Positions 1 through 26,382 of a stretch of 64,000 bases of DNA are shown in pieces. Position 1 is the first letter of the stretch; every line of letters begins with the position of its first letter. The notes under the pieces are model-generated. The model did not search any database. It was not told the origin of the DNA and saw only the letters and a list, made by a program, of their open reading frames with translations. A program made the translations under genes and the position numbers. Source of the DNA: Physcia stellaris (taxonomy: Eukaryota; Ascomycota; Lecanoromycetes; Caliciales; Physciaceae); assembly GCA_018902385.1 (NCBI GenBank), contig JABSSW010000001.1, positions 1,116,001 through 1,180,000 of the forward strand, written 5' to 3'.

Positions 1-1900
1 ATTGCTAATCAAACAACGATGACAACAATCTCGATCGACAAGCTCAATTTACGCTTTGTTCGCGCTTCAGATTACATTCAGCGTTTCAATCTCGATATTC
101 GACATAAGTCAAACAAGCAGCACATTGTTTTTGACGTTTTGTCACGTTGATCAGTGACAATATCAACGCGTCAATGATCAAATTTTGATGAAAATGAACT
201 TGATGTTTTGTTCACAATTTCACTAATCGAAATGAAAAAAACTTTCGCAATCGAATATTCGATGACTACAAGACAGATTTAAATTGACAAAAGATCAGTC
301 AAGTATTGAATGCTGACGACGAGAACGTCGCAAAGCTGTCTTTTTATAAAAAAAAAAATGATTTGATTTTTCGTTCAAATGATTTTATCATTGATGATCA
401 TGTTTACGAATTTCGTCGACTTTGCATTTTTCATTTCGTTGTATCAAACATTTTACGATTAATTCATGACGATGAACATTCGAATTACGCAAAATGTTTC
501 GAAAAAATGTTCGTTTCATATTATATTCGCGATTTGTTTCGTTATTTGCGTGATTATTTAAAACATTGTTCGAAATGTCAAATGTATCAAATCAAAAAAC
601 ACGCATCGTATGATTCGTTACAATTCATATTAATTTCATCGATTTCATTTCATACAATCATCATTGATTTCATTTTGATTTTATTTGTTTTCGATGACGA
701 ATTGAATATCGCGATGTTTGTCATTTGCAAATTCACGAAACGATTCACATTCGTTGTCGACAAAAAAACTTGATTTGTCGCTGAATGAAAAATCGCGTTA
801 ATCGACAAACTAAATATTGTTGATTGAAATATATCGAAAATCATAATCTCGAATCGAGATCGCAAATTTCTGTTTGATATGTGAACAACAATCTTCAAAA
901 ACTCGAAGTTCGTTTATTTTATTCAACTGCATATCATTCTCAAATTGACGATCAATTCGAACGAACTAATCAGATGATTGAAATTGTTTTCGATTCTATC
1001 TGATTACAATGAAAAATTCAATTGAATGATTTCAAAATATTGTTCAGATTGCAACGTCATTTTAACAATTTCATTTTGTCACTACTCACAAAACATTCAA
1101 TGAAACGTTTTACGAATTTATTTTTTTGCAATTTTGAACATGTTGCGTCAATTCGTTACATTTGATTTCATTGACGATTTGAAAAAGTTTTTCGCAACTG
1201 ACAATCGAAAATTTTTCGCAAAAATTTTTTTCAATGCAATTATTCGTGTTCGTTTTGAAATGATTGACGTCATTGCATTTGTTCAAATGATCAACAAATA
1301 TTATTATGATCGCAAACATCAATTTTTGTTCATGAAAATTGACGATTATGCATTGATTAAATTGCATCATGATTACAACATATCGACAATTGAAATTTTC
1401 GATAAAAAATTGAGTCAACAATATATCGATTTTTTCAAAATTCTTGAGAAGATTGATAATCTGACATATCGATTGGAATTTTCGAATCACCGACGTATAC
1501 ATTTTGTTTTATTCATATTGTGAAATCTGTTCTTTCATCAATGAACGATTTTTCAATCGTTCGCTCAAATCAGCCAAATTTTGTTTTCGTTGAAAAAAGA
1601 CACGAATCGAAGTCAAATTATGAAAAATTGAAAAATTTATCAACAAACGTCAAATCAAACGTCGTAACGACGAGTATTTTGTCAAATGAAAAAAATTGAA
1701 AATCACAATACGATGAATGACGAAATTTATCAGAACTCGACGACGTTCAAAATTTTGTACAGAATTACGAAAACGTTTTGCGTTCAACGATGTTTTTGTC
1801 AAATCGTTTGCATAAATTTTTCATTTTATCGATCAAGATTATCATTTCGTTCAAGTTTTTTCGATTTTAAACAGTTTTCGCAGTCATTTCATTGATTAGA
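1..1900 (+). mobile_element. Ty3/gypsy fossil, chromodomain type (chromovirus), 3' part
   Basis: This is the downstream part of a broken Ty3/gypsy pol region cut by the left window edge. In order it shows the end of an RNase H domain (about 1-150), the HHCC zinc-binding part of integrase (about 430-600), traces of the integrase core (about 620-1,130), the integrase C-terminal region (about 1,130-1,560), and a weak chromodomain-like stretch (about 1,610-1,790), which would make it a chromovirus. The family is recognised from the spacing of His and Cys residues and from integrase tail residues around 1,300-1,500. It is broken in many places. It is less saturated by the block's mutation bias than the middle of the region: CpT and ApG still occur near its left end. 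No age can be given because the mutation process is not clock-like. Confidence 0.75.
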
Positions 1901-2440
1901 AAATTTTTCACAATTATTTTCTCGACGTCGACGTTTGTCAATCAATTTTCAACAAATCAACGATTCGCGATCGTTATTTCACGTAAATCGAACACGACAT
2001 TTTCGTTAATTTTTGATTCGAAACATTTGTTCTGATTCGAAAATTAATCATCGTCGAATTGATTACATTTTCAATCATCTCGCTGATTTCAGTCACGTCG
2101 TCGATTATCGCAATTGATATTTTGATACGACAATTTTCATCGACTTCAAGATTAGAAAAGAAAATTACAAATATCAACACGAATATTGTTTTGTATGATT
2201 AAAAAACATAACATCGAAACGATGTCGTCTATTTTGATTGAAACAGATTGTTTGAAAAGTTTGTCGACTATAAAACGAAAATTTGTTTGACGATTATCAA
2301 TGACAAAATTTGAAAACTAAACGTGTTTGTCGTTGAAAGATAAATCATTTGTCATCATAACATTTTACAGTATATATTTCGAAACTTCTTCGTAGAATTA
2401 GCAATCAAACTTTTTACATCTTTTCACACATTGTTCTTGA
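1900..2440. other. AT-rich spacer between two fossils
   Basis: This stretch of about 540 bp lies between the chromodomain-like end of the first fossil and the Gag-like start of the second. It probably holds remains of one or both LTRs, but I could not match it convincingly to the LTR pair at 18,084 and 24,537. I see no gene in it. Confidence 0.4.
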
Positions 2441-5400
2441 AAATGACGAGACAAACGACGAAAAGTTCTGTTGATCAAACAAACGATTTGAAAACTTTTT
2501 TGACGAAAAACGACGAAATCTTCGACGATAAAAAACGAGAATTGATTCGATTAATTTTTTTTTTATCATTTTCAATTTTTCTTTTTCAATTATGATTCGA
2601 AATCATCACGAAACAATTTTTCGAATTTTTTATTTCGATGAAACAACGTTTCAAAACGTTGCGTATGTCAACGTGAATCGTATGTTTGCAAAATCAACGA
2701 CAATTTTTTTGACGAAAGTTTCGTTGAAATTCAAACGTCGTCGATTTGTATCAACAATCGATTTCATAAAAATGAAAAATGAAAAAATCATTCATTTTCT
2801 GAATATCGTCATCATCGATCAATGAAATGATTGAATCAATTTAAAATCGTCGATTTTTTAAAAAAAATTTGATGATTTACGCATCGATCGTGATAATTAT
2901 TTGAACGTTTTAAAAAATATCAAAATTTGTCAATATTGTCAACGTCGATCGTGACGAATCGATCAATACAAATGTCAAAATTCGATTAAATTCGAAAAAA
3001 TGAATATTTTGAAAAGCGAATACGAAAAACAACGTGATTTGACTTTTGATCAAACAAAAAAAATTATTTTTTTTTTTTGAAAAAAATCACGACGTTTTGT
3101 TAATCAAAACTCGCGATCGTACACGAAATTTTGACGTCGACGATTAAAAAAACGACGACGAAATCAACGTAATTAATTTTTTTTTCAAAAAACAAACGAC
3201 GTTTCAAAAACACATTCAAATTTTTTAAATTCATCGATGAAATAGAATTCATTTGACGTGTTTTGAAAAACAAAAATACACGATAAAATGACGATCAACG
3301 TCGATCATTACGACACGAACATAATCGCAATCACTATTGTGATTGATTGAATTGAAAATGATATCGATAATCACATACAATCGATTCGTGATATTGATAT
3401 TAATCATTTCAAAATTTGACATATGATGTTGAAATTTTTGAACATTATTTACGAAAATTTTAATTTCAAACGCAATATGCGTAATCAATTTCGAACATTG
3501 ATCATGAATATTCAAAATTTTCAATTTTTTTATTTCATTTTTTTCGTTTTAGCAATTCAATTGATTATAACGAAATTCATCAAAATCGAAAATTAATGAA
3601 CAAAATTTTTGAAATTTGAAAAAAATTATAAATGTATATTCACGTGAATTTATCACGTTCGATGAAATTCAAAATCATTTTGCAACAAATTTACAATCGA
3701 CAATCGAATTTTCGAAAAAAAAAAATCGCGACACGTCAACAACGTTTTAAATTGTTTCAATTCAAATCAATTTTTGTCGTTTCGATTTCTGATGTTTTTT
3801 ACGAAATTTGTCATTTCGATTTTTCGTGAAATTTAACGATTCATTTTCATTTCAACGTTGAAATCAAAATTCGTGATTCGATGATCAAACAAATTGATCG
3901 TCACGAACAAATGTTTCACATGTGACGAATTCGAATCACGTTTGAAAAAATGTTCGAACGATCACAAACATCAAAAACGTCATTGACACAAAATGCAAAT
4001 ATCGTACATGAATTTAATCGTCGAATCGAATGATTTTGATTCGAAAAATTAACAATTCACATCAAAACGCGATTGATGAATGTTTAAAAAATTTTTTATT
4101 TACAACGACGATTTGTTTGATTTTTTTCATCAAACGATTTTTAATCATCAATTGTACGTTATCATTCAACGATAATAAACATAAATTAAAAATTTTAATA
4201 AACATTGATGCAATTGATTATGCATTCATTGATAAAAAAATCGCGCAATTTGTATGCAACATGTTGAACATGAAATTCGTATTTTTATTGAAATCGAAAT
4301 CATTGATTGAATTCGACGATCGTCAAATTTTATCAATAATTCATGTCATATATTTTAAATTAACGATAAAATTGCATTTCGAATTGATCGTTTTTTTGTT
4401 AATCATCGATTTGAATAATCATTCGATAATTTTAAAAAATCGTGAATAAACAAACATGAAATCATATTGAACATGATTTACGATAAATTGATTTTCAAAT
4501 CGTTCAAATGCAATCATCATGACAATATATTCAATCAAAAATTGTTCAAATTCGACGTTTGAAAATTTTCAAATCAAATCGTCGATAAAATGTATTTAAT
4601 TGACGTCGTGATATTTTGTTATCGCAAAAAAAATTCGAAACATATAACGATAATAAAATTTCGATATATCATTTTATTTCGTTTCAAAATCAAATTTTTT
4701 TTTACGTTTTTGAAAACGAATCAAACGTATTCGATTCGAAATGTTTCGAATGTTTCAATTCATTCGAACGTCGACGACGATAACGAATCGTCAATCAAAA
4801 TCAAATAATTCAAAAATTGATATCACAACGATTACGAAAACGACATTCATCAAAAAAAAATTTGAAAAACAACGCAACAAACGTTGAAAAATCAAAAACA
4901 ACAATTCGAAATTTTTTCATTTTCGAAATTGAATTCAAACGATTCAATGAATATCGCGATGATTGATGCAATTTTTTTTTGTTTATTTGTTGATTTCAAA
5001 AATCGAAAACAAAAAATGCAATGTTTTTTCATTACAATCAATCAAATCGATTTCGCGTTCAAAACATTGCGAACAAATTTTGAATCGTTGAAAATTGTTG
5101 TCATGATTAAAAAAATTTTGAAACATGAACAAATCAAATCGATTTTGAACGTATAATGAAAAAAATATTCAAATATTTCAAACATTTATCAAAAATATTC
5201 GATTTTCAAAAAACAATTGAATTGTCATCGCATCGATTTTACGATCACAAAATCGAATTTTTAAACGATAACAATACATTGTTTCGAAACAAAATATATT
5301 TTTTGTTCGAATTCAAATTTCAAAAATTCAAAAATATTTGAAAAATAATTTTCAAAAAAAATTTTATCGTATTCAATCAAATTGCATACGTTTCGTTCGT

Positions 5401-8300
5401 TTTATTTGCAATCAAATCGAACGATCAATTACGTTTGTGTGTGAATTATCGACGATTTAATCACATCACGAAACGCAATCGATATTTCATTTTTTGATCG
5501 AAAAATTTTAATCAAAATGCAAAATTGCAAATATTTGATCAAATTGAATATTATATCGATTTTCAACAAATTTCGAATGAATGAAAAAATGAAAATTTAT
5601 TACGTTCGTTATTTTCATGAAATTATACAAATATCGAATATTATTTTTCGAATTGATCAACGAATTCGCGAATTGACAACATTACATGAACGATTTGTTA
5701 TTCAATTTTTTGAACGATTTTTGTCAAATTTATTTAAATGATATTTTCATTTACAACAAATTCAAAAAAACACATCGTTCACGTTCGTAAAATGTGAAAA
5801 ATTCAAAAATCGAATTACAAATGAATATTGAAAATGCGAATTTTTAAAAAAAAAATGACATTTTGAACGTCATATTATCGATGAATGATTTTCGCATGAA
5901 TTCGAAAAAAATAAAAATCATTGTCAATTGAAAACGTTTTACAAATTTGAAAAAATACAAATTTTCGTGAATTTCGTCAATTTTTACAAACGATTCATTC
6001 GTGATTTTTCGAAAAATTCGAATTTTCATTCGAATAATCAAAAACTTGTGAATTTCGAATAAATTGAAAAATCGAAAAAATTTTCAATTTTTTCAAAAAA
6101 CAATGACGAAAATTTTCATATTACGACATTACGATCGAACAAAACAAATTATTTTGAAAATCGATTTTTGATTACGTCAATACGAAAATATTATTTCAAT
6201 ACGACGACGAAAAATGTTGCATTTCGTTGTTTTTTATAATCGCAACATGATTTGATCGAATGCAATTACGAAATTTATACAAAAAAATTATTGATCATTA
6301 TTCGTTGTTTAAAACATTGACGTTTTTTCAAAACATCAAAATAATCAAAAATCGATCAAAAAAATTTCATAACGTTAAAAAAAAATTAATTTTTTCAATT
6401 TGATTTTCAAAAAATTGAAATTTTCATGACGTCAAAAAAAAATTTTTCGTCAAATTCGTTGAGCAGAAATTTTTTCGAAATTTAATATTGTCATTAATTT
6501 CAATTCGAAATTCAAAACGTTAAAACAATGTTTTTGATTCGTATGTTTGATTTTCGATTCAAAAACGATATTAACGAACGACATCAATATCGAAAACAAA
6601 TATTGTTTATTTCGAAACGATTCGAAATTCACGCGATAAAATTTGACGAATTTATTTACGAACGATTTGAGTCAATAAAATTGATATTGAAATTACGAAC
6701 GATTTATCGTGAAATTATCGAACAAAATTTCATTTTCGAATGAAATCGATTTTCGAAATTGCATGAAAAACGAAAAAACGTATTGATTCGTATCGAAAAA
6801 ATCGATTTTGTTTCGAAACATTCAAAATAATGCATAAAAAATACGAACGATTATTGTTTTTGTTATTCGACGAAAATTTTTCGTAAAAACAATTTGAAAT
6901 TTCGAAAATTGAATCGACATATCAATTTCAATCGAATTGTAAAAATCATAATGTCATACGCACATTTTTCGATGCGTTCAAAAATTCGATTTTGATTCAT
7001 TCAAATTCGTTCGTTGAAAAATTCATCAATTTACGATTTTTCGAAACGTTTTAATTTTTTTCAATTTAAATAAATTTTTTTCATTTTGTTGAATCGAATA
7101 AAATAAATTTTTCATCGATTTTCGATTTTACGATCATGTTCGTCGAAAACATTTCGACAATAATCGACAAAACATGCAAAAAAACGTTTTATTTTTTCGA
7201 ATTTCGATTCGATATTTGCAATATCGCGTTGAAAATTATAATTCAAAATATTTATTCAATGATAAATTTCGATGTTAAACGTAAATTATTTTTTCGATCA
7301 CAACGAAAAACGATTTTTGATCGTCAAAAGAAAAATTTATAACGACGTTCGAAAATTTTTGACGAAATATCGATATCAAACGTAACAATTCAAATTAACA
7401 AACATTCGTTTTGACGATTCAAAATCAAATCGAAAAAATCAATCAAAATATCAACAATTTCGACAAATTTGATGACAAAAATTTTTTACAAAAATTGACG
7501 TATGAAAAATTCAATTTGAAATTATGTAATTTCAAACAATATTTTCGACATCGATTATTTCAATTTTTTCATTAAAATCAAATTAATTTTCATTTTTTTT
7601 CATAAATCAACGAAAATTTCGAAAACGAAAACGATTTTGAAATTTCGAACATAAATTTTTTCATTTCGTCAAACGATCGCAAAATATTTTCAATGAAACG
7701 ATATTCGACACGAAAACGAATTGATAAACATGACGATTTTTCAAATTTTACGAACAAAATCGAAAATCGTTCAAAAAAAATTTTTCGTCAACGAATTTTT
7801 TCAACGAATTTCGAAAAAAATGCAAAATATTTTCAAATTATTTTCAATTAAATGATTACGAAAATTTCATTTAAACGTTTTTTATTTCAAAATAACAACG
7901 AAATTATTTAAGCGTTTCGAAAAATCAAAATTTACATCGATTGAATCGTGTCGAAAATCAAAATTTCGTATTTTCGAATCGAAATTTATCGCATTAAAAA
8001 TGAAAAATTGATTTTCGTTTGACAAATTTTGATGATAAATCGTTTTCAAAATCGTCAATTGTTCGAATTTAATGTTCGAACATCAATTAAAATTTGACAA
8101 AAAAATTCGATATAATAAAATGATTAAACAAATATCGAAAAATTCGTTTTTTTTGCGAAATTCGTGATCGAAAAAATTTTTGCAATTTTTGATCATTTTC
8201 GATTTATTTGTTTTTGCAAATTTATTGTTTTTTTGATCAATTCGTTTTTGATTCAAAAACGATTTTCATAATTTTTTCGAATTAAAATTTCAAAATCGTT
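2440..8300 (+). mobile_element. Ty3/gypsy fossil A, nearly full internal region
   Basis: This is a broken Ty3/gypsy element on the + strand. Its parts in order are a Gag-like region with a charged coiled-coil stretch (about 2,440-3,950), an aspartic protease region (about 4,100-4,560), reverse transcriptase (about 5,100-6,060), RNase H (about 6,060-6,750) and integrase (about 6,750-7,700), with further degraded sequence to about 8,300. Reverse transcriptase is the clearest part, from residues around the fingers and palm that match fossil C on the other strand. It carries very many breaks and no clear LTRs. The whole element is saturated with the CpY-type bias described in the findings. It is the same family as the element at 18,084-24,868 in the opposite orientation. 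The right edge is approximate. Confidence 0.75.
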
Positions 8301-11300
8301 TTGAAAACGTAACGTCGAAATTATTCGAAAAACGATTATTTTGAATTTTTGATTCATTCAAATCAAATTTATTTTTTGAGTTTTTTCGATTTGTTCATTT
8401 TCAAAATTTAATTTAAACGATAACGAAATTCGAAACGATTAAAATTTTTTTGATTTTATTTGTAAAATTTGAAAAAGTTGAAAATTTTTCGAACGAAACG
8501 TTCAAAATTTTTTGAATTTATCGATGTTTTCGAAACGATAATTTGTCGTCAATTTTTAACGTTTTAAAAATATTATAACGACGATGTTTTTGATTTTCGA
8601 TAATTTTTCGATGATTTATTTTGATTGTTTTTCATTATTTCGAAAATTTGATTAATGTTCATCGACGAATCGTCGAATTTACGTTTTGAAAATTTAAAAA
8701 TTTTGTTAACATTAATTAAAAATTTTTTCAATTTTTTTATTCGAATTTTTGAAATGACGTTTATTTTTAAAACGATCAAATCGTCGAAATCGTTTAAACG
8801 ATTTTACAATAATTTCGATCGAATTTGAAATTTCAAAAATTTGAAATTTTGTTTTAACGTATTAAAATTAATGATTTTATTTTATTTTTCAAATAAAATT
8901 GATAAATTCAACGATTTTTCGAATTGATTTTCAAAATTATTGTTTTCATTTGAAAAATTTTTACGTTTTTAAAATTTTAATAAACGTTGTAACGCGTTCG
9001 TTTTGTTAAAATCATAAAACGCGACAATTTCGTAATCATTTTGTAACATTGATAAATTTAAATCAAATTTACACGATTTTTCGAAAAACAAAAAATTTTA
9101 ACAAATTATTTTCAATTTTCGATTGACGATTGAAATTTCGAAAATATTCAATTTTTTAATCAAAAATTTTGCGATTTTTTTCAAAATGATTTTTTTCGAT
9201 TTGTTTTAATTTTAAAATATTCAATCGAAATCGAATATCGATTAAACAAATCATATGTTTTTCAAAAATTTAAAACGTTAACGACAATTTCATTTTTACG
9301 TAAACATACAAATCGCGAAAATTTCGAAAAAAGTTTCGATTCGTCGTTTTACGTATGATGTTTTTTTTTTTTAAATTTTAAATCACGAAAAAAATTTTTA
9401 AAAATTTCGAAACGACGAAAATTTATGACAAATTTTATCAATTTAATTCAAAGAAATTTTGATCAAAAACGTGAAAAAAAATTTGCATTATCGAAAATGA
9501 TAATCGATTGTTTTTATTAATTGAAATTCAATTTTTGATACATTCTGAAATCGATTTGAAAAATCGATTAAATCGTTTCAAATTCGAGTTTTTATCAACG
9601 AAAAAAAATTTTTGAGTTTTGAAATTTTCAAATAATATGTTCTAATTATAATGTGAAAACAGAATTTTGATAACGAATTTTAAAAACAGAAATTTCGTAT
9701 TTTTGAATCGATTTTTTACATTTATTTATTAACAAAGATTCAAATTTTTTTTTTGAAAAATCAAAAAGAAATTTTCTGTTTCGATTTTTCACGTTTGATT
9801 TTCAATATTTTGAAATTCATTAAAAATTCAAATCGTGAAAATTGATTTCGTTTTCAATGACGAATTGCGAATCAACAAATTTTTCAAGTTCGTTAATTAA
9901 ACGAATAATAGAAATCAATTTGAAATTTTAATCGATCAAATTTCAATAAAATCGTTTATTGAATTGATCGACTTTAATTTGAACGAAATTTTTTTAAAAC
10001 ATAATTTTTTTTGAAATTTCGCGATCGAAATCGACAACGTTTCATAATTTTAGTCGCGATAATCGCGTTAATTTCAAAATCGAAAACAAAAATTTCAAAA
10101 TTTTTTTTAATTTCGAAAAATTGAATCGTTGTAAACGAACGTTTCGAAAATTAATTAAACAAAATAAGAAAATTTTTTTTTAAAATTTTGTGATTTTAAA
10201 AACGCGTATTTTGAAAACGATAAACATTTTTCAATAAATTTTCAAATTTTTCGAATCGTTCGTATTTTTTCATTATCGAATAAAAATCAATTTTTTTGAC
10301 ACGAATCGTTTTTCAAAAAAAACGTCAGAAATTTTGATCGATAAATAAATCGATTCTTTTCACGAAATTTGAAAAAATTGTAAAAATTGTTTAATTCAAA
10401 TTTTAAAATTTTGTTGAACACGAACAACGCGTTTGATTTTTTTTCAATTTTAATCGAATTCAATATTTTCAATGTTTTTGCATTTCGAATAATTAAAATT
10501 GCGAAAACAATTTGTTTGTCGAAAACAAATTTAAAAATTGATTTTGAACGCAAAAAAAATATTATTTGAAAAAATTTTTGTTTTCAATTTTTTCAAATTA
10601 CGTAAATTTTTTAAATTAAAACAATTTCATTTTATTATTATATCGAAATTTCAAATTTTTTCGAAAAATTAATGAAATATGATTCAATTGTTCGAAATAA
10701 ATTTCGACGACATTTTCAATATCGCGAATTTTGAAAAATTTTGATTTTTGTATATTGAATTTTGTAATCGAAATATTTTTCAAAAATTTACGATCGATTA
10801 AATTGACAAATTTTCGATATCGACGTTGACATATCGAAAAAATTGTTTTATGTTTGTTTTTATCGTGACGTCAAACGTCACGAACGAAATTTTCAATGTG
10901 TATTTGTTTTGAAATTTGATTGTATAATAAAAAATTGAAAAATTATGAAACAATTTTTCGTCGACGATGTGTCAAATTTAATCGAAATTTTTGACACGAA
11001 CGCAAATTTCGATGAAATTTGTTATTAAAAAAAATTTCGATTGAAACGATTTTGACAAAAATTTTTGTTTGTTCGATTGAAAAATTCGAAATTTTGATTT
11101 CGAAAAAAACAATAATTTTAATAAAAATTTTTGAATTTCGAAATGTTTTTCGTCATGATTTTAAATCATTTATTCAAATATTTTTGACGCGTTTTCGTAT
11201 TTTTGTAATTATTTTGATAGTTTTTTATCGAAATTGAATAATTGTTTTTTCATTTTTTTTTCGCAAAATACGTTCGTCGATATAATGTTTCATTTTGATT

Positions 11301-14150: not shown

Positions 14151-16545
14151 ATTTCAATTCGAAAAATTCAAATTTTCGTTAAAACAAATGAAAATAATTT
14201 TGATTCGTATGTTTGATTTTCGAAAAAAACGAAATTGAAAACGACATCAATATCGAAAAAAATAAAATGAAAATCATTTTCAAAACGATTCGAAAACGCG
14301 ATAAAAATTTGAAAACGAATTTATTTACGAACGAATTTTGATTCATCAAAATTTGACGATCGAATTGCACGATATCGTGAAATCAATTTTTTCGAACAAA
14401 ACGCATTTTATTTTGTAATTTTTTTGAACGAAATCAAATTTAAAAAATTGCAATTTTTGAAAAAAAAACGATGTTTTATATCGAAATGATCGATTATGAA
14501 TGTTTGTCGACGTTTTTTTATTCGTTGATTTTTCAAAAAATTCATGAATTTTTTTTCAAACATTCAAATTTTAATCGTAAAAAAAATTTTATTTCGCGAT
14601 TATTATTGATTCAATATGCGCAAATTCGTTCGTCGATACGTACGCAATTGTTACAAAAATTTCAACGTACGAAAATTTTCAAAAATCGAAAAAATAATTT
14701 ATTTATTTTTTTGAAATTTTTTTGCAACGTTGAATCGACATATTTATGAATTTTATCATCGAATTGTTCGACGTTTACGAATCACAACGTTATTTGCACG
14801 ATAATCGACAAATTTAATAAAAACGTCATTATGTTTTCATCGTTTGAAAATACAAATGCGAAAATCACGATCAAAATATTTATCAATTACGTGTTTCGTA
14901 CATTTTTGAATTATTTTTTTTATAACGTTAAATCGAAAATTTCAATTCATATCATTCGAATTTGACAAACAAATTTTGCAAAATTTTCGACATCAAAAAT
15001 TTTTAAATTTTTATCGTTTTTCATTCAAAAATCGATAAACAAATTAAAAAAAAATCAATTAAAATATCGAAAAACAATTGCGAAAAACAATATCGATCAA
15101 TTACATGCAAAACGATTGAAACGTTTAATTGTTCATAATCGAATTTTTAAACAACAACGCGATATTTTCAATAACAAAATTATTATCAAAAATTTTTCAT
15201 CAATAAAAATTTTCATTTTTATGAAAATTTTTTTATTAAATTTTATTTCGTATGTTACAACGAAAAACGATTTTTGATCGTCAAAACAAAAATATCATCG
15301 ACACGATGATAAAAAATATTTTCAATTACGTACGAAATATGCAAAAATGATTTAAAAACGTATAACAATTCAAATCAACAAACATCGAAAAAAAATCACA
15401 CGAAATACGTCGAAAAAAATTTTTTTTTTTTGAATCGACGAAACATCAAAACGATCGAAATCGTTCGACAAATTTGATGACAAAAATTAAATTGTACAAA
15501 ATATTAAAACGTAAAACAATTTTTATCGATTCGAATTGTTAAAAATTATGCGATTTTTACGATTGTGTTTTTGCCGATTTTTTCGCAAAAATTTTGTGAT
15601 TTTTCGAAAATCAAATCAACGAATTTTTCGATTTCGTCATAATTAACGAGAATTTCGAAAAAAATGAACGATATTTTGAAATTTCGATATCATTACAATC
15701 GTTTTCAATATCGTGTCAATTAATCGATTGATTTATAATCGAACGTGAAAATTATTTCGATAACGAAAAATTCGAAAATGTTCGCGAAATGATAAACGAT
15801 TTTCATCGTATTCATTTCACGACAACAAATTCAAAATCGTTCAAAACGTTAATTTCAATATTTCAAATCGTCGTCAAAAATTCAAATTTTTCAATTTTTG
15901 TCGTCGTCGTTTTCGAAAAAAAATCGTCATGTTCGACATTAATCGAAATTATTTTCGATTAACATTTGAAAAAACGAATTCGAAAATCATTTGTTTTGAT
16001 TTTTCGATTTTTTATTTTCAATTCGATTTTTTATTATTTTGTTTGAAAAATAAACATTTTTTTTCAGTCGAATTTACATCGCATGAAAATTTGAATCGTG
16101 TCAAAAATATTTTCAAATGAAAAAATTGTTCATTTTATCGAATTTTGAAATGACATTAAAAAATACAAAAAAAATGAAAAATGATGATCGTAAAATTTTG
16201 AATTTTGCAACATACAATTTGAAAACAAAATTTTCAACAAAATTTTTTTAAATTTCAATAACAACGAATCGTCGAAAAACGTTCGCGAAAAAAAAAAATA
16301 AATTTCAACATTCGAAATTTAAAAACAAATAGATTTGACAAATAACAAATAATTTATGATAAATATTAAACAAATATGTTCAATCGAATTATCTTTAATT
16401 TTTACGAAATTAGCGATTTGATTTGAATTTTTTTTGACGTTTGATTAAATTGTTCAATACAATTTTTTTTCAAAATTTTGTATTTAAATTTTTGCAAACT
16501 TATTGTTTCGTTTAACTAATCAATAATACGTTTATTCAAACACGA
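14150..16545 (+). mobile_element. Ty3/gypsy fossil B, RNase H end, integrase and 3' LTR
   Basis: Sequence from about 14,160 repeats the RNase H/integrase junction seen at about 6,500 in fossil A and, inverted, at about 20,160-20,400 in fossil C. Integrase zinc-binding, core and C-terminal traces follow to about 15,650. A 3' LTR lies at about 16,325-16,545; its last part is the reverse complement of the LTR copies at 18,084 and 24,537, the orientation expected for a + strand element. It is broken in very many places. Its 5' portion is probably in the unassigned DNA to the left. Neither a polypurine tract nor target duplication could be assigned. Confidence 0.65.
16325..16545 (+). repeat. LTR of fossil B (3' copy)
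   Basis: The stretch shares several blocks, in inverse orientation, with the LTR copies at 18,084-18,306 and 24,537-24,868, including the block around 16,505-16,545 that ends in a run reading towards 'tattcaaacacg'. CpT and ApG persist here a little more than in the element bodies. Boundaries are approximate because substitutions and small gaps blur the match. Confidence 0.55.
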
Positions 16546-18083
16546 AAACGTGATAAATAAAACGATTTTTTCGAAAATGAAATTTTTTGACAAATTGATT
16601 ATTAACGATTAAAAATAATCGTGTTCAAACAACGTTAATAACGACGCTAATTTGAAAAAATCAAAACGTTAGAAAAATTTTTATATATATTAAAAATTTT
16701 TAAAGAAATTCAATCAAAAATTTTTTTTCAAATTTGAATAAATGTTCGATTTTGCGATTTGAACGTAATCATGCGTATAAAAACGCAAAATCAATAATTT
16801 TTCAACGTATAATCAAATTAACATTAATTGATTAATTTTCAAATTTCACGTTTTAAATAAAACGATTGTTAACAAATTTGATTTTGATGAAAAAAAATTT
16901 TTTTGAAAATTGAAATTTTAATTTTAAAATGAAACAGAAAAATTGCAATTTGCAAAAATTTGTGTCTTGTTGTTTTTTATTGATAGAATTGTTCAAATTG
17001 AATGAATTATCGTTAAATATGAATCAAAAAATTTTATCGTATTTATCGATTTTCATTTTGCTTTGATGACAATTTTTTTAAATCGCAATCTGTAAAATTT
17101 CTGAATAGATAAATTTCGAAATTGCATGTTGTTTTATCGAATGCTAATTTACATAATTTTTAACATTTAATTCATTAAAAATCAAATTAATTTTAAATTT
17201 TGATTTTTTTTGAAATCATTTTTTTTTTTTCAAAATTTTTAAAAAAAAAAAAATTTGATATTTCGTTTTACTTTTGATGTTCAAATTCATTTTTCGATGT
17301 GAAAATGATGCGATTTTTCGATTTTTGATTGATCGAATTTCTTGTTTTTTTTTTTGATATCGAAATAGATTTTAAATCAATCAATAAACGAATTTTTTTT
17401 TTTTTGAAATTTATTGATAAAGTTTTGATGAAATCGTCGATCAAAATTCGTTCAATAAAAAAATTTTTCGTTTGAAAAAAATGTTGATCGTTTTTTTTTG
17501 AAATCAATTTTGACGAAATCAAAATCGATGTATATCGACATTTTGACGTAATTCGATTTAAAAATGAGTTTAATCAAAAAATATAATGAAAATTCATTCG
17601 ATAATTTGACGATTATCGCATTCGATATTCGTAAATTTTCTTATGAAATTTTTTGATTCAAAAAAACAATTTCATTATATTTTTTGATATTGATTTTCAT
17701 TGAAAATTTTAAAAAAATTCGAAACGATAGAATTGATATGATTTTTTTTGTTTTGTGATTTTTCAATCGATGAAATCGTCGAAAAACATTTTTTGAAACA
17801 ATATTTATTAATTTGAATTTTTGACGAATTTAAATCGTTTGCGAATGACGCGTTTGAAAAATTTCAAAAAAATGATGATTTATGATTTGTTTGATTTTTG
17901 TCAAAAACAATGACGTAATATTTGATTGTGTCAAATATTTTAGTTTTCGAGTCGTTTGTAAAAATTTTTTAATGTTTAAAATGAATTTTTAAAATATTCA
18001 AATAATAATGATCAACAACGATTACATTTGATCGAATGATTGTTGCAATTATTCATTTTTAATCGAATCGATTTTCTTTGATT
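16546..18083. other. AT-rich spacer between fossils B and C
   Basis: About 1.5 kb of AT-rich DNA lies between the LTR of fossil B and the left LTR of fossil C. It contains long A/T runs (for example around 17,220-17,260) and a few residual CpT/ApG sites. I see no gene and no clear element family. It may be older repeat DNA into which the later elements inserted. Confidence 0.4.
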
Positions 18084-18306
18084 ATCATGAATCGTGTTTG
18101 AATAAACGTATTATTGATTAATTAAACGAAAACAATAAGTTTGCAAAAACAAATAAATATAAAATGTTGAAATTGCAAACAATATGCGACGTCAAATTTC
18201 AAATCACGTTAATTTCAACGTAAAATTAAAGCATAATTCGTTGTTCGATCACATATTATATCAATTATCTATTTGTCAAATTTATTTGTCAAACATGTTC
18301 GTAACA
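18084..18306 (-). repeat. 3' LTR of fossil C
   Basis: This copy matches the right LTR over its beginning ('atcatgaatcgtgtttg') and its end (the block closing in 'gtaaca'), but it is about 110 bp shorter because an internal repeated block is present once instead of twice. Confidence 0.75.
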
Positions 18307-21300
18307 TTATTTTTTTTTTTTTTCGCGAACGTCGTTTCGACGATTCGTTGTTGTTTCGAAATTTGAAAATTTTGTTGAAAATTTTGTTGATTAATTTGAA
18401 TATTTGCAAAATTCAAAAATTTTACGATTATCATTTTTCATTTTCAAATGTTTCGTTATTGTTTCAAAATTCGATAAAATTTGACAACAATTTTTGAAAA
18501 TATTTTTGACACGATTCAATTTTTCATGCGACGTAAATTTTGATTGTAAATAACATCGAAACGATAACGAAAATTAAAAATTGCGAAAACGTTGCGAAAA
18601 TGAAATCGAAATAAATGTATTGAATTCGAAATTTTCAAATTTTAATCGAATGTAATTTCGATTAATGTCAACATGACGATTTTTTTTCGAAAACGACGAC
18701 GATTCGTTGAAAAATTTGATTCGTTGACGACGTTTTGAAATATTAAAATCAACGTTTTGAACGATTTTAAATTTGCAATCGTGAAATGAATGCGATGAAA
18801 ATCGTTCATCACGTCGCGAACATTATCAAATTTTTCGTTGTCGACATAATATCATGTTCGATTATGCGATCAATTCGATCAATTGACACGATATTGAAAA
18901 CGATTGTAATAATATCGAAATTTCAAAATATCGTTCATTTTTCATTCGAAATTTTCGTTGATTATGACAAAATCAAAAATTTATTGATTTGATTTTCGAA
19001 AAAATCACGAAAATTTTTGCGCAAAAATCAACAATGAAACACATCGTAAATATACATAATTTCAAACAATTCGAATCGATAAAAATTGTTTATACGTTGT
19101 AATATTTTGTAAAAATTTAATTTTTTGTCATCGAATTTGTCAAACGATTTGATCGTTTTGATGTTTCGTCGATCGAAAAAAACGAAATTTTTTTCGACGT
19201 ATTTTACGATTTTTCGATGTTTGTTGATTTGAATTGTTATACGTTTTTGAATCATTTTTGCATGATTTCGTACGTAATTGAAAATATTTTGCATCGTGTC
19301 AATAATATTTTTGTTTTGACGATCAAAAATCGTTTTTTCGTTGTAACATACGAAATAAAATTTAATGAAAAATTCATACGAAAATGAAAATTTTTATTGA
19401 TGAAAAATGAAAATAATTTTGTTGTTGCAAATATTGCGTTGTTGTTTGCAAATTCGATTATAAACAATCAAACGTTTTAATCGTTTTGCATGTAATTGCA
19501 ATATTGTCGCAATTGTTTTTCGATATTTTGATTGATTTTTTCGATTTGTTCATCGATTTTTGAATGAAAAACGATAAAAAATTTACATTTGATGTCGAGA
19601 ATTCGACAAAATGTTTGTCAAACGAACGATATGAATTGAAAATTTCGATCAAACGTTATCGAAAAAAATAATTCATGTGTACGAAATACGTAATTGATAA
19701 ATATTTTGATCGTGATTTCAACATTGATATTTTCGTCGTCGACGATACAAAACACGTAATGACGTTTTTTGTTAAATTTGTCAATTATCGTGCATATGAC
19801 ATTATGATCGTAAACGTCGAACAATTCGATAATAAAATTCATTGATATGTCGATTCAACGTTGCAAAAATATAATCAAAAAAATAAATAAATCGTTTTTG
19901 CGATTTTTGAAAATTTTCGTGCGTTGATATTTATAACAATTACGTACGTATCGACGAATCGTTTTGCGCATGTTGAATCAATAATAATCGCGACGTATAA
20001 AATTTTTCATGCGATTAAAATTTGAATGTTTCGAAACAAAAAATTCATGAATTTTTTTGAAAAAATCAACGAATAAAAAAACATCGACGAACATTCAAAA
20101 TCGATTTTTTCGATACAAAACGTCGTTTTTTCAATGCAATTTCGTAAATCAATTTCATTCATTGAAATGAAATTTTGTTCGATAATTTCACGATAAATCG
20201 TGCAATCATCGTCAATTTTGTTGACAACAAAATTCGTTCATAAATAAATTCGTCAATTTTTATCGCGTGAATTTCGAATCGTTTCGAAATAAACAATATT
20301 TGTTTTCGATATTGATGTCGTTCGTCAATATCGTTTTTTGATCGTGAATCAAACATACGAATCAAAACATTTGTTTTAACGTTTTGAATTTCGAATTGAA
20401 ATTGAATGACAATATTGAATTTCGAAAAATTTTGTTCAACGAATTTGACGAAAAATTAATTTTTTGACGTCATGAAAATTTTCAAATTTTTGTGATCGAT
20501 GAAAATTTTGATCGATTTTTCAATGTTTTCAAATTCAAAACGTCAATGTTTTAAACAACGAATAATGATCAACAATTTTTTGTTATAAATTTCGTAATTG
20601 CATTCGATTGAAATCATGTTGCGATTATAAAAAACAACGAAATGCAAAATTTTTCGTCGTCGTATTGAAATAATATTTTCGCATTGACGTAATCAAAAAA
20701 ATCAATTTTCAAAATGATTTGTTTGATTCGATCGTAATGTCGTAATATGAAAATTTCAATCATCGTTTTTTTGAAAAATTGAAAATTTTTTCGATTTTTT
20801 CAATTCATTCGAAATTCACAAATTTTTGATCATTCGAATGAAAATTCGAATTTTTTTCGAAAAATCACGAATGAATCGTTTGTAAAAATTGACGAAATTC
20901 ACGAAAATTTGCATTTTTTTCAAATTCGTAAAACGTTTTCAATTGACAATGATTTTTATTTTTTTCGAATTCATGCGAAAATCATTTATCGATAATATGA
21001 CGTTCAAAAATGTCATTTTTTTTTTGAAAAATTCGCATTTTTCAATATTCATTTGTAATTCGATTTTTTTGAATTTTTTCAACATTTTACGAACGTGAAC
21101 GATGTGTTTTTTTTTGAATTTGTTGTAAATGAAAATATCATTTAAATAAATTTGACAAAAATCGTTCAAAAAATTGAATAACAAATCGTTCATGTAATGT
21201 TGTCAATTCGCGAATTCGTTGATCAATTCGAAAAATAATATTCGATATTTGTACGATTTCATGAAAATAACGAACGTGATAAATTTTTCATTTTTTTCAT

Positions 21301-24300
21301 TCATTCGAAATTTGTTGAAAATCGATATAATATTCAATTTGATCAAATATTTGCAATTTTGCATTTTAATTAAAATTTTTTCGATCAAAAAATGAAATAT
21401 CGATTGCGTTTCGTGATGTGATTAAATCGTCGATAATTCACACACAAACGTAATTGATCATTTGATTTGATTGCAAATAAAACGAACGAAACGTATGTTG
21501 TTTGATTGAATACGATAAAATTTTTTTGAAAATTATTTTTCAAATATTTTTTGAATTTTTGAAATTTGAATTCGAACAAAAAATATATTCGATTTCGAAA
21601 CAATGTATTGTTATCGTTTAAAAATTCGATTTTGTGATCGTAAATTCGATGCGACGACAATTCAATTGTTTTTTGAAAATCGAATATTTTTGACAAATGT
21701 TTGAAATATTTCGATATTTTTTTCATTATACGTTCAAAAATCGATTTGATTTGTTCGTGTTTCAAAATTTTTTGATCATGACAACAATTTTCAACGATTC
21801 AAAATTTGTTCGCAATGTTTTGAATGCGAAATCGATTTGATTGATCGTAATGAAAAAACATTGCATTTTTTGTTTTCGATTTTTGAAATCGACGAATAAA
21901 AAAAATCGCATCAATTATCGCGATATTCATCGAATCGTTTGAATTCAATTTCGAAAATAAAAAATTTCGAATTGTTGTTTTTTGATTTTTCAACGTTTGT
22001 TGCGTTGTTTTTTCAAATTTTTTTTTTGACGAATGTCGTTTTCGTAATCGTTGTGATATCAATTTTTGAATGATTTGATTCAACGACGAACGACTCGTCA
22101 TTTTGATCGATTTTCGAAATGAATAAAACAATCGAAACATTTTGAATCGAATACGTTTGATTCGTTTTGTACATAAAACGCTGAAAAATTTAAATTTTGA
22201 ACGAAATAAAATCGTATATCGAAATTTTATTGCAACAATATGTTTCGCGTTATTTGTTTTCGATAAAAAAAACATCGCGACGTCAATTAAATACGTTTCA
22301 TCGACGATTTGAATCAAAAATTTTCAAACGTCGAATTTGAATTGTTTTGATGAATATATTGTCATGATGATTACATTTGAACGATTTGAAAATCAATTTA
22401 TCGTAAATCATATTCAAAATAATTTCATGTTTGTTCATTCACGATTTTTTTAAAATTATCGAATGATTGTTCAAATCGATGAATAACAAAAAAATTGTCA
22501 ATTCGAAATGCAAATCAATTGTCAATTTGAAATAAATGACATGAATTATTGAAAAATTTGACGATCGTCGAATTCGATAATGAATTTCGATTTTAATAAA
22601 AATACGAAATTTATGTTCAACATGTTGCATACAAATTGCGCAATTTTTTTATCAAATGAAAACATAATCAATCGTGCATCAATGTTTATTAAAATTTTTA
22701 ATTTATGTTTATTATCGTTGAATGACAACGTACAATTGATGATTAAAAATCGTTTGACAAAAAAATCAAACAATTCGTCAAATGAATAAAAAAATTTTTA
22801 AACATTTATCAATCGCGTTTTTGATGTGAATTATCAATTTTTCGAATCAAATTCGTTCGATTCGTCGATCATGTTTATGTAAAACATTTGCATTTTGTGT
22901 CAATGACGTTTTTGATGTTTGTAAACGTTCGAACATTTTTTTCATACGTGATCGATTTCATCGTATGCGAAACATTTGTTCGTGACGATCAATTTGTTTG
23001 TCATCGAATCACGAATTTTGATTTCAACGTTGAAATGAAAATGAACGACAAATTTCACGAAAAAATCGAAATAACAAATTTCGTAAAAAACATCGAAATC
23101 GAAACGACAAAATCGATTTGAATTGAAACAATTCAAAACGTTGTCGACGTGTCGCGATTTTTTTTTTCGAAAATTCGATTGTCGATTGTATATTTGTTGC
23201 AAAATGATTCGAATTTCATCGAACGTGATTAATTCACGTGAATATACATTCATCGTTTTTTTCAAATTTCAAAAATTTTGTTTATCAATTTTTCGATTTT
23301 GATGATTTCGTTATAATCAATTGAATTGCTAAAACGAAAAAATGAAATAAAAAAATGAAAATTTTGAATATTCATGATCAATATTCGAAATTGATTACGC
23401 ATATTGCGTTTGAAATCAAAATTTTCGTAAATAATGTTCAAAAATTTCAACATCATATGTCAAATTTTGAAATGATTTATATCAATGTCACGAATCGATT
23501 GTATGTGATCATCGACATTATTTTCAATTCAATCAATCACAATAATGATTGCGATTATGTTCGTGTCGTAATGATCAACGTTGATCGTCATTTTATCGTG
23601 TATTTTTGTTTTTTAGACACGTCAAATGAATTTTATTTCATCGATGAATTTAGAAAAATTTGAATGTGTTTTGAAACGTCGTTTGTTCTTTTGAAAAAAA
23701 TTAATTACGTTAATTTTATCGTCGTTTTTTTTATCGTCGACGTCAAAATTTCATGTACGATCGCGAATCTTGATCAACAAAACGTCGTGATTTTTTTTCA
23801 AAAAAATGTAATTTTTTTGTTTGATCAAAAATAAATCACGTTGTTTTTCGTATTCGTTTTTCAAAATATTCAATTTTCGACGAATTTTATTTAATTCGAC
23901 ATTCGTATTGATCAGTTCGTCACGATCGACGTTGACAATATTGTACAAATTTTGATATTGAATCAAAACGTTCAAATAATTGTCACGATCGATGCGTAAT
24001 CGATCAAATTTCTTTAAAAAATCGACGATTTTATGATTGATTCATCATTTCAATTGATCGATGATGACGATATTCAAAAAATGAATGATTTTTTCATTTT
24101 TCATTTTTATGAAATCGATCGTTGACACAAATCGACAACGTTTGAATTGATCAACGAAATTCTCGTCAAAAAAATTGTCGTTAATTTTTATGCAACATAC
24201 GATTCACGTTGACGCGTAACGTTTTAAAACGTTGTTTCATCGAAATAAAAAATTCGAAAAAATTGTTTCGTGATGATTTCGAATCATAATTGAAATGAAA

Positions 24301-24536
24301 AATTGAAAACGATAAAAAAAAAATTAATCGAATCAATTTTCGTTTTTTATCGTCGATTGCGCGAAAAATTTGTTATTTCACGTTTTTCGTTGTCTTGTCA
24401 AAAAATTTCAAATCGTTTGTTTGATCAGCAAAGTTTTTCGTCGTTTGTTTCGTCAAAAAAGTTTAGTCGATTTGAAATTTTATTTTGAACGTTCGCGTAT
24501 CACGACGAGCGATAAAAATTGAAAATTTATTGTAAT

Positions 24537-24868
24537 ATCATGAATCGTGTTTGAATAAACGTATTATTGATTAATTAAACGAAAACAATAAATCTGCAAA
24601 AACAAATAAATACAAAATGATTGAAATTGCAAACAATGTGCGACGTCAAATTTCAAATCACGCTAATTTCAACGTTTCAAATCACGATTAATCAACTATC
24701 TATTTGTCAAATCTATTTGTCAAAATTAACAAAGTTGTAAACAATGTGCGAACGTCAAATTTCAAATCACGTTAATCTCGTCAGAAAATTAAAACATAAT
24801 TCGATTTAAATCTATCTGCTCAATCATTTATCATATCGTTTATCTATCTGTCAGACATGCTCGTAACA
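24537..24868 (-). repeat. 5' LTR of fossil C
   Basis: This is the longer of the two LTR copies. It contains an internal near-duplicate block around 24,640-24,680 and 24,745-24,780. It keeps more CpT and ApG than the element body, so it is less saturated by the local mutation bias. Confidence 0.75.
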
Positions 24869-25900
24869 TTCGTCACGTTGACGAGTCACGAAATAATTGA
24901 AATGAATTAATTTGTGCATTTTGAACAACAAAATATTTTGACAAAATACGTCGACAATGAGTTTCGAATCAACGTTTTCGATGATCAATTGATTGTGTAA
25001 TGATTCAACGATTTTGATGTAAAATTCGACGCTCGTTAAAATAACAAATCGATCAATGAAATCGAAAATGATATCGACGAAAAAAACGAAAATATTCTTT
25101 TTGAAACGTTTTGTTATTTTTGTTGATAAATCAATGATGTTGAATTCGTTATGACAATGATAAAAAAACGATGATTGACGTTCATCGTTGAACAAATAAA
25201 AAATTTTATTCAAATTTCGTTCGTGTTTCTCGACGACGATGATGAAATCAATAAATTTGATTTTCGTTTTTACATCGATGAAATTTCAATCGATATTTTT
25301 GTTGTGTAAAAACTCGACGATAAACATTGATTTTATTGATAAATTGATTATTTATTCAACGTGATTGACTCGAAAATCGTTTTTGACGTCGATTTCTCAA
25401 TTGAAATACTGTTTTGATTTTGAAATGAAAACGACAAAATTGTGAATGATGTTTGACGTAATCATTGTAATGTTTAAATTTGAAAATTTGAATCGTATAA
25501 ATGAAAAAAAAAAAAAAACGTTTGTGACTCGTGAAATCGTGTAAAACGTGTGAATTTCATGTCGTATTTGTTTTTTTTTTTTTTCATTTCGTAACAAATG
25601 AATTCGAAACATCAATTCGAAACAATGACGAATTCATTGAATCATCGAATCGTGTATGTGAAATTTCGTGTTTTTTGAAAACGTTTTCATCGAGATCGAA
25701 TGATCGATCGTGCGTTCGAATTTGACGTTCGTTTGAACGATGAATGACGTTTTCATCGATCGACGTCGATGTTGATTTTTTGAACTTTTGAAAAATTAAA
25801 TGACGATCGTTAAAATAAACATTATGCATTTTATTGACGACATTAAATGACGATAAACTCGTTGTGAATTCAATTTGATGTTTTCGAATTTGATCGTCGT
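24869..25900 (-). mobile_element. Unassigned retroelement-like fossil next to fossil C
   Basis: Minus-strand frames at 24,851-25,213 and 25,397-25,829 look like pieces of a degraded coding region with little Gly, Pro or Trp, as elsewhere in the block. I do not recognise the family. It abuts the 5' LTR of fossil C, so fossil C may have inserted into it. It is broken and some residual CpT/ApG sites remain. Confidence 0.4.
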
Positions 25901-26382
25901 CTAATCAATCAGAGATTTCTCGATCGATGCATGAAATCAACGTTTGAGCGTTGTAAAATAGTATGAATCGATTCGAATGATATTTGACAAACATTGTCGA
26001 ACTCATAATTTGTTACAGATATGTAGAATGCAACGTGTTTATATTCGTAATAATACTATTTATCGTACATGTGATGAATGTGGATTATTGTACAGAGTTT
26101 GCACGCTAGCCTATAATAGAATAACGCCTTGGCATTGCTTTTGGTGGTGAGTTTACTCCAACAATCTCGCAGTAAACTCGTTTGAAACCATGCCAGTTTC
26201 TATAATAATCACTCCTAGTCACAGCGCTATCGAGTAGTCCCAGCAATCTTCCATGTCATCACGTCGAACTCTCGCTTTCCCAGTTACCCTCCTTCACAAT
26301 CTCCCCCAATTAAACTAGAGATTCACTATATCCAGCGTCTATTTTGTAATTCCGCCGACCGCTTTTCTATCAATCCCTGAAT
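25900..26382. other. Border between AT-rich block and gene-bearing DNA
   Basis: Base use changes within roughly 150-200 bp. To about 25,980 the CpY-poor pattern holds; by 26,100 CpT, CpC, ApG and GpG are all frequent and GC content is that of ordinary fungal intergenic DNA. I see no gene, terminal repeat or telomere-like repeat at the border. Confidence 0.7.

Follow-up and report, generated by a model that had tools for sequence, protein, structure and literature searches.

In the repeat-induced point mutation (RIP) of Neurospora crassa, cytosines are changed to thymines on both strands of repeats only, and the 3′ base sets the order of targets, CpA>CpT>CpG>CpC (PMC5496416; this and the other papers cited here are drawn on in excerpt). 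In Trichoderma reesei, CpA and CpG are hit about equally, followed by CpT and then CpC (PMC5496416). A CpT signature occurs together with that of CpA in Magnaporthe, Botrytis, and Sclerotinia (PMC4352252), either CpA or CpT is the target in Colletotrichum truncatum depending on the family (PMC6180176), both are targets in Anisogramma (PMC10998396), and CpT-to-TpT was the dominant change in the alignment analyses of a further survey (PMC7882544). CpC depletion or CpC-to-TpT change is mentioned alongside CpA RIP for Stagonospora and Monilinia. Across 1,239 fungal genomes, RIP-like defences were found to share a preference for CpA (PMC12543289). Here we describe a block of degraded retroelements in a 64,000-nucleotide stretch of the Physcia stellaris genome (C1:1116001-1180000; the whole stretch is called the window), in which CpC and CpT were lost. 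As a mutation pattern, a RIP-like specificity for CpY (cytosine followed by a pyrimidine) is very well supported; the process is RIP-like in its working, yet it is not classical CpA RIP. With high probability, the block is an accumulation of retroelement copies that a RIP-type process has inactivated, taking CpC first and CpT second and leaving CpG untouched and CpA nearly so.

Composition and extent of the depleted block

Physcia stellaris, a lichen-forming fungus, was analyzed in an assembly of 43.97 Mb in 147 contigs, one of whose RID-type proteins matches a protein of that species with 99% identity over 95% of the query. The published assembly comprises 46.57 Mb in 184 scaffolds, with a guanine-plus-cytosine (GC) content of 43.32% (PMC7513301). 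The following parts of the window were distinguished:

1..26080, no strand assigned: window part of the CpY-depleted block, consisting of degraded repeats, with 0-3 CpC+GpG in every full kb of 1-26,000
1..3000, no strand assigned: CpC-free stretch still holding 10-25 CpT per kb, from per-kb counts
3501..25900, no strand assigned: core used for the statistics, with CpC, GpG, CpT, and ApG nearly gone and with pieces free of Pro, Gly, and Trp
19690..23171, no strand assigned: retroelement copy of the window, aligned pairwise to the unmutated copy L025
26081..64000, no strand assigned: DNA of normal composition serving as local control, from per-kb dinucleotide counts (CpY index 0.94)

In the core, CpC and GpG were found once each where base make-up predicts 301 and 322 (in sum, 2 versus 623), and CpT and ApG were found 56 and 58 times where 1004 and 1014 were expected (114 versus 2,018). 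None of CpA (1170, expected 982), TpG (1254, expected 1037), and CpG (1371, expected 311) fell below expectation. Compared with the normal part of the window (27,001-64,000), the core contained 0.1 versus 123.7 CpC+GpG and 5.1 versus 136.0 CpT+ApG per kb, while the corresponding values were 108.2 versus 135.1 for CpA+TpG and 61.2 versus 55.0 for CpG. A first-pass annotation made from the window's letters alone had stated that CpA is kept; this is true relative to expectation, but overstates the absolute number slightly. The loss of GC (269 per kb) was close to that of CpC plus CpT (about 255 per kb), leaving a GC content of 19-28% per kb over 3,001-25,000. The CpY index, defined as (CpC+GpG+CpT+ApG)/(TpC+GpA+TpT+ApA), was 0.009 in the core. 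Over the same core, the usual RIP indices were 0.39 and 1.40, so that the block is missed at the usual thresholds (PMC2621366), as the annotation had anticipated. Its hand count over 19,981-20,280 was reproduced for CpT, CpC, ApG, and GpG (all 0), CpA (21), TpA (13), and (CpA+TpG)/(ApC+GpT) (34/23), with small corrections for CpG (22 instead of 23) and ApT (42 instead of 41). In 12,481-12,780, CpT, CpC, ApG, and GpG were again 0, in agreement with that count.

The block had been placed at 1..26000. Depletion was seen throughout this interval, but the block starts about 10 kb further left, outside the window (about C1:1106001), and its right edge lies near 26,080, where CpY returns to normal over about 100 bases. 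The 10 kb preceding the window (L009) contained 0-2 CpC and GpG per kb and retained more CpT than the CpT-bearing parts of the window; the locus before it (L008) was normal. CpT, described as gone, was indeed nearly absent from the core as a whole, but 10-25 CpT per kb were left in 1-3,000, 12-15 in 24,001-26,000, and 5-7 in 16,001-18,000, with CpC at only 0-2 per kb in these three stretches. Because 1-3,000 lacks CpC yet holds this much CpT, CpC was lost before CpT. An intermediate composition was also noted in L022 (4001-7400, on C40), where the ratio of observed to expected over 4001-7000 was 0.45 for CpC and 0.75 for CpT, in keeping with an earlier loss of CpC.

The 3-kb piece 19,001-22,000 of the block had at least 40 long matches with 90-100% identity, its own place included (47 rows; a lower bound, as 40 of 520 candidates were scored). 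CpC and CpT were normal in the 38 kb of the window to the right of the block, as they were in all 12 arbitrary 10-kb loci sampled (L010-L021). Short affected stretches were present in L022 and L023, and all 10 kb fetched from the 30-kb contig C100 (L024) were affected. A long interspersed nuclear element (LINE)-like sequence (L027, C39:288001-292000) with an 803-aa open frame was unmutated; a DNA search found no other match to it in the genome, making it single copy by this search. Thus, the same depletion in single-copy DNA, which would have spoken against a repeat-directed process, was seen neither in the 12 sampled loci nor in this LINE. Since the published GC content is 43.32%, that of normal loci about 0.50, and that of blocks about 0.24-0.28, roughly a quarter of the genome would be affected. 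Relatives of the element were also searched for in viral contigs, and none were found there.

Mutation spectra of paired copies

As a reference for the first family, we picked L025 (C12, GC 0.53) from the 10 reverse-transcriptase matches without internal stop among the 150 listed. By its domains, it belongs to the Gypsy type. Used as a query, it recovered the family of the window block (at least 41 rows; 40 of 234 candidates scored). Twelve copies spanning the identity range, fetched from the 40 other rows, were aligned pairwise to L025 together with the window copy and the unmutated copy L026. Every C on both strands was scored by its 3′ neighbor, excluding gaps and transversions. The degraded copies formed a graded series, from 81% down to 68% identity to the unmutated copy.

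The preference for CpA that marks classical RIP was not found. In the window copy, C-to-T changes affected 490/496 CpC and 416/420 CpT, but 34/447 CpA and 14/462 CpG. L029, the least mutated copy, was changed at 393/494 CpC, 191/424 CpT, 16/449 CpA, and 11/466 CpG, and the unmutated control L026 at 24/500, 21/429, 17/450, and 13/462, respectively, so CpG changes showed no excess over the control. L036, the most divergent copy, differed at 70/384 CpA and 46/395 CpG.

The second family, also Gypsy-type, was represented by the reference L028 (C52) and four more copies fetched from 24 other rows. In these four, 96-100% of CpC and 77-98% of CpT were changed, as compared with 3-16% of CpA and 2-5% of CpG. 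Within about 3.4-3.5 kb, the copies showed 827-953 C-to-T changes, 8-17 transversions, and 22-29 transitions in the reverse direction (T-to-C or A-to-G); from this excess of C-to-T over transversions, the change was fast and specific. In sum, the 13 degraded copies of the first family and the four of the second changed at CpC and CpT and not mainly at CpA, bearing out the proposal of a C-to-T process that requires a 3′ pyrimidine.

The lead of CpC over CpT was largest where mutation had advanced least. The ratio of per-site hazards (CpC/CpT) was 2.65 in L029 and 2.87 in L030, the two least mutated copies. It was lower, at 1.4-1.9, in copies with more mutations, and close to 1 in the three saturated ones. 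The 5′ base had a small effect (CpC rates in L029 of 0.86, 0.80, 0.77, and 0.76 for A, C, G, and T at −1), with G at −1 giving the lowest rate at CpT. CpC was changed more often before a purine than before a pyrimidine in six of the six copies given (e.g. 217/252 versus 176/242 in L029). This is the outcome expected if, in a run of cytosines, the downstream C may be mutated before the upstream one, whose context then becomes the poorer CpT. CpA was considered as a second target and set aside as weak. In the three saturated copies, where it was strongest at CpApY, 47/348 sites were changed with T, 19/242 with C, 18/347 with G, and 6/375 with A at +2, omitting sites changed in at least 9 of 13 copies.

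Both strands were mutated (CpC in L030: 169/195 on the plus strand and 260/301 on the minus strand). The strand symmetry proposed by the annotation describes the end state, but L029 carried single-strand tracts. At reference positions 1-400 of this copy, 50/63 sites were changed on the minus strand versus 1/41 on the plus strand (Fisher p 3e-16), and at 1801-2100 the numbers were 31/41 versus 0/41 (Fisher p 6e-14), both tracts being chosen post hoc. When patchiness was assessed by strand in 12 copies, one strand of L029 and one of L041 lay above all 500 shuffles. L029 (C95) and L030 (C51) also resembled each other in their CpT states: of 420 sites, 178 were changed in both, 199 were unchanged in both, and 43 differed. 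With most states common to both, these two copies are probably related after mutation, via duplication or conversion of a mutated copy.

Stop codons mirrored the target. Within the 150 listed reverse-transcriptase matches there were 250 TGA, 33 TAA, and 3 TAG, and within 10 DDE_1 matches 44 TGA, 3 TAA, and 0 TAG. Such an excess of TGA is predicted from a change of RpG (R, purine) to RpA, which turns TGG into TGA and leaves CAA and CAG intact. A striking side effect on coding was that Pro, Gly, and Trp each amounted to 0.0% after rounding in the stop-to-stop pieces of at least 60 aa from the core (91 pieces, 7,143 residues).

Candidate enzymes and competing explanations

The first-pass annotation had also pointed to RID- and DIM-2-type methyltransferases and to deaminases as possible agents, and genes of each kind are present. 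A search with PF00145 gave four matches in three genes, one a DIM-2 homologue and two of the RID type. The gene on C3 is DIM-2-like; its best PDB match is 9bap (E 4.6e-188), an entry listed only as a DNA cytosine methyltransferase, which we read as DIM-2. RID-A (C5, P0001, 932 aa) has the motifs SPPCQ and LEQT. The second gene of this type, RID-B (C6), is compact; its motifs are SPPCQ and MEET, and the TGA codons found in frame lie in stretches that, on visual inspection, resemble short introns. A quick tree was built from 58 rows; six of the 62 proteins selected lacked the motif searched for and were omitted, Neurospora RID was left out, and the outgroup branch was very long. In this tree, RID-A fell among lichen RID-type proteins. 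RID-B fell in a group of nine rows (Shimodaira-Hasegawa-like approximate likelihood ratio test (SH-aLRT) 99) with a protein of Heterodermia, another member of the Physciaceae; Heterodermia carries both RID types (P0008 and P0128). The deaminase search yielded two genes matching Inv-AAD, a Pfam family named for invertebrate AID/APOBEC deaminases, both intact (L045 on C69 and L046 on C6), plus one dCMP deaminase-like gene.

Hence the genome shows three features of RIP in the broad sense: (i) C:G to T:A transitions are concentrated in repeats, with two families affected and 12/12 sampled loci normal; (ii) the changes lie on both strands; and (iii) RID-type methyltransferase genes are present (two, with SPPCQ plus EQT or EET). 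It does not show the methylated but unmutated repeats of methylation induced premeiotically (MIP), both families being heavily mutated. In the mechanism that we propose, the agent would recognize duplicated DNA and act by way of a C5-methyltransferase fold, that of RID-A, RID-B, or DIM-2, which would sense the base 3′ of the cytosine. Mutation may have come in a small number of bursts; by analogy with Neurospora, these probably fell near the sexual cycle. RID-B would be the preferred candidate for the changed specificity. Purified RID is, in the excerpt of PMC13297926, without demonstrated chemistry so far.

Several observations weigh against this RIP-type reading. Some duplicates escaped mutation, as seen in L025 and L026, which share 95% identity over 3.5 kb, and 10 of the 150 listed reverse-transcriptase matches in the genome have no internal stop. 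CpA is not fully spared, being changed at 8% in the window copy, 16% in L044, and 18% in L036 (CpG 12%). The strand tracts are clear in one copy (L029) and not general. All the enzymes named here, deaminases included, are candidates for the role.

Among the alternatives, editing of the repeats by an AID/APOBEC-type cytidine deaminase rather than by a RID/DIM-2-type methyltransferase is unlikely, but fares best. The two intact Inv-AAD genes on C69 and C6 would supply the enzyme, and single-strand tracts fit a deaminase acting on exposed strands. However, AID/APOBEC enzymes choose their targets mainly by the 5′ base, whereas here the 3′ base decides and the 5′ effect is small. The closest solved relative of the Inv-AAD protein on C6 is 7drz, a 'CMP/dCMP-type deaminase domain-containing protein' (E 4.3e-48, with RibD-type far below), which makes a housekeeping role likely, and the Inv-AAD profile also matches in Lactococcus lactis.

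Slow decay without an active mutator, in which CpY would be methylated by a DIM-2-type enzyme and would then deaminate passively over evolutionary time, is quite improbable. In its favor, Neurospora DIM-2 methylation prefers CpT (PMC13297926), a DIM-2 homologue is present, and L036, with its extra CpA and CpG changes, looks old. Yet the second family combines nearly complete change of CpC and at least 77% change of CpT with very few transversions and reverse transitions, CpG shows no excess over the control, and the rate required is hundreds of times background. An assembly or sequencing artefact, or foreign DNA of odd composition, deserves next to no credence: nothing beyond the odd composition itself suggests it, while for both families the assembly itself contains unmutated relatives of normal GC that can be aligned along their length, the changes run in one direction (C-to-T), and an axenic culture was sequenced by both Nanopore and Illumina (PMC7513301).

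Relation to described RIP and possible occurrence elsewhere

The RIP-type process favored here resembles RIP of Neurospora crassa in C-to-T change on both strands, restriction to repeats, presence of RID and DIM-2 homologues, and dependence on the 3′ base. It differs in that CpC exceeds CpT and that CpA and CpG remain near background, CpC being the poorest target in Neurospora. The same applies to Trichoderma reesei, where the process is alike and depends on the 3′ base but the poorest target is the CpC that leads here. With Magnaporthe, Botrytis, and Sclerotinia, and with other RIP fungi that carry CpT signatures, it has in common that CpT is a major or leading target (PMC4352252, PMC7882544). 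Among the species covered by PMC4352252, however, CpT goes with CpA and the excerpt names no CpC signature, whereas the lead in our block belongs to CpC, and CpA stays close to background. Cladonia rangiformis (PMC12542154) is likewise a Lecanoromycete; its genes border sharply on degraded repeats, homologues of RID and DIM-2 are present, and unmutated retroelements are few. Its GC distribution has a local peak near 16%, as opposed to 19-28% per kb here, and this lower peak suggests a wider target in C. rangiformis; the text of PMC12542154 on this species does not use the word dinucleotide. In Microbotryum and other basidiomycetes with a CpG-type signature, C-to-T change is also directed at repeats and not at CpA (PMC4352252, PMC2621366), but CpG is spared here. 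CpT-led RIP is already in print, which counts against full novelty of parts of our observations. For CpC-led RIP with CpA spared, we found no description in the excerpts of the open-licence PMC literature.

Public proteins were searched with a stop-to-stop piece from a saturated copy, and 120 of 179 matches (ENA, JGI, and NCBI) were listed (P0239-P0358). Among these 120, 88 had neither Pro nor Gly and 110 had less than 1% Pro+Gly; the set is biased, as the query is devoid of Pro, Gly, and Trp and candidate selection relied on shared words. Median His+Gln was 6.2% in the 110 fragments; for comparison, the first 300 aa of the frame in its unmutated form contain 7.0% His+Gln and 10.7% Pro+Gly. 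Classical CpA RIP would deplete codons for His and Gln but retain much of the Pro and Gly. We take these fragments as a lead, from protein sequences, to a similar process elsewhere. Trp occurred in 60/120 of the listed fragments although 110/120 had less than 1% Pro+Gly. Because TGG requires GpG, gene callers probably read TGA as Trp in these fragments, and repeats degraded in this way could mislead software that selects a genetic code automatically. Four reverse-transcriptase fragments from JGI/NCBI (P0314, P0316, P0332, and P0348) had Gln or Trp where relatives have Arg, suggesting that a related process may also strike CpG in another organism.

We lean towards the view that a RIP lineage with an inverted rule (CpC>CpT, with CpA and CpG spared) and a diverged RID/DIM-2-type enzyme is common to other fungi. 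If so, such a lineage would have been overlooked in RIP surveys built on the assumption of CpA. The Physcia stellaris genome itself looks like a near-complete exception to the shared CpA preference, shown by paired mutated and unmutated copies. If this holds, RIP would not be bound to CpA and index-based surveys would undercount it, and fungi would supply natural enzymes of both the CpA and the CpY type with which to address the target choice and chemistry of RID.

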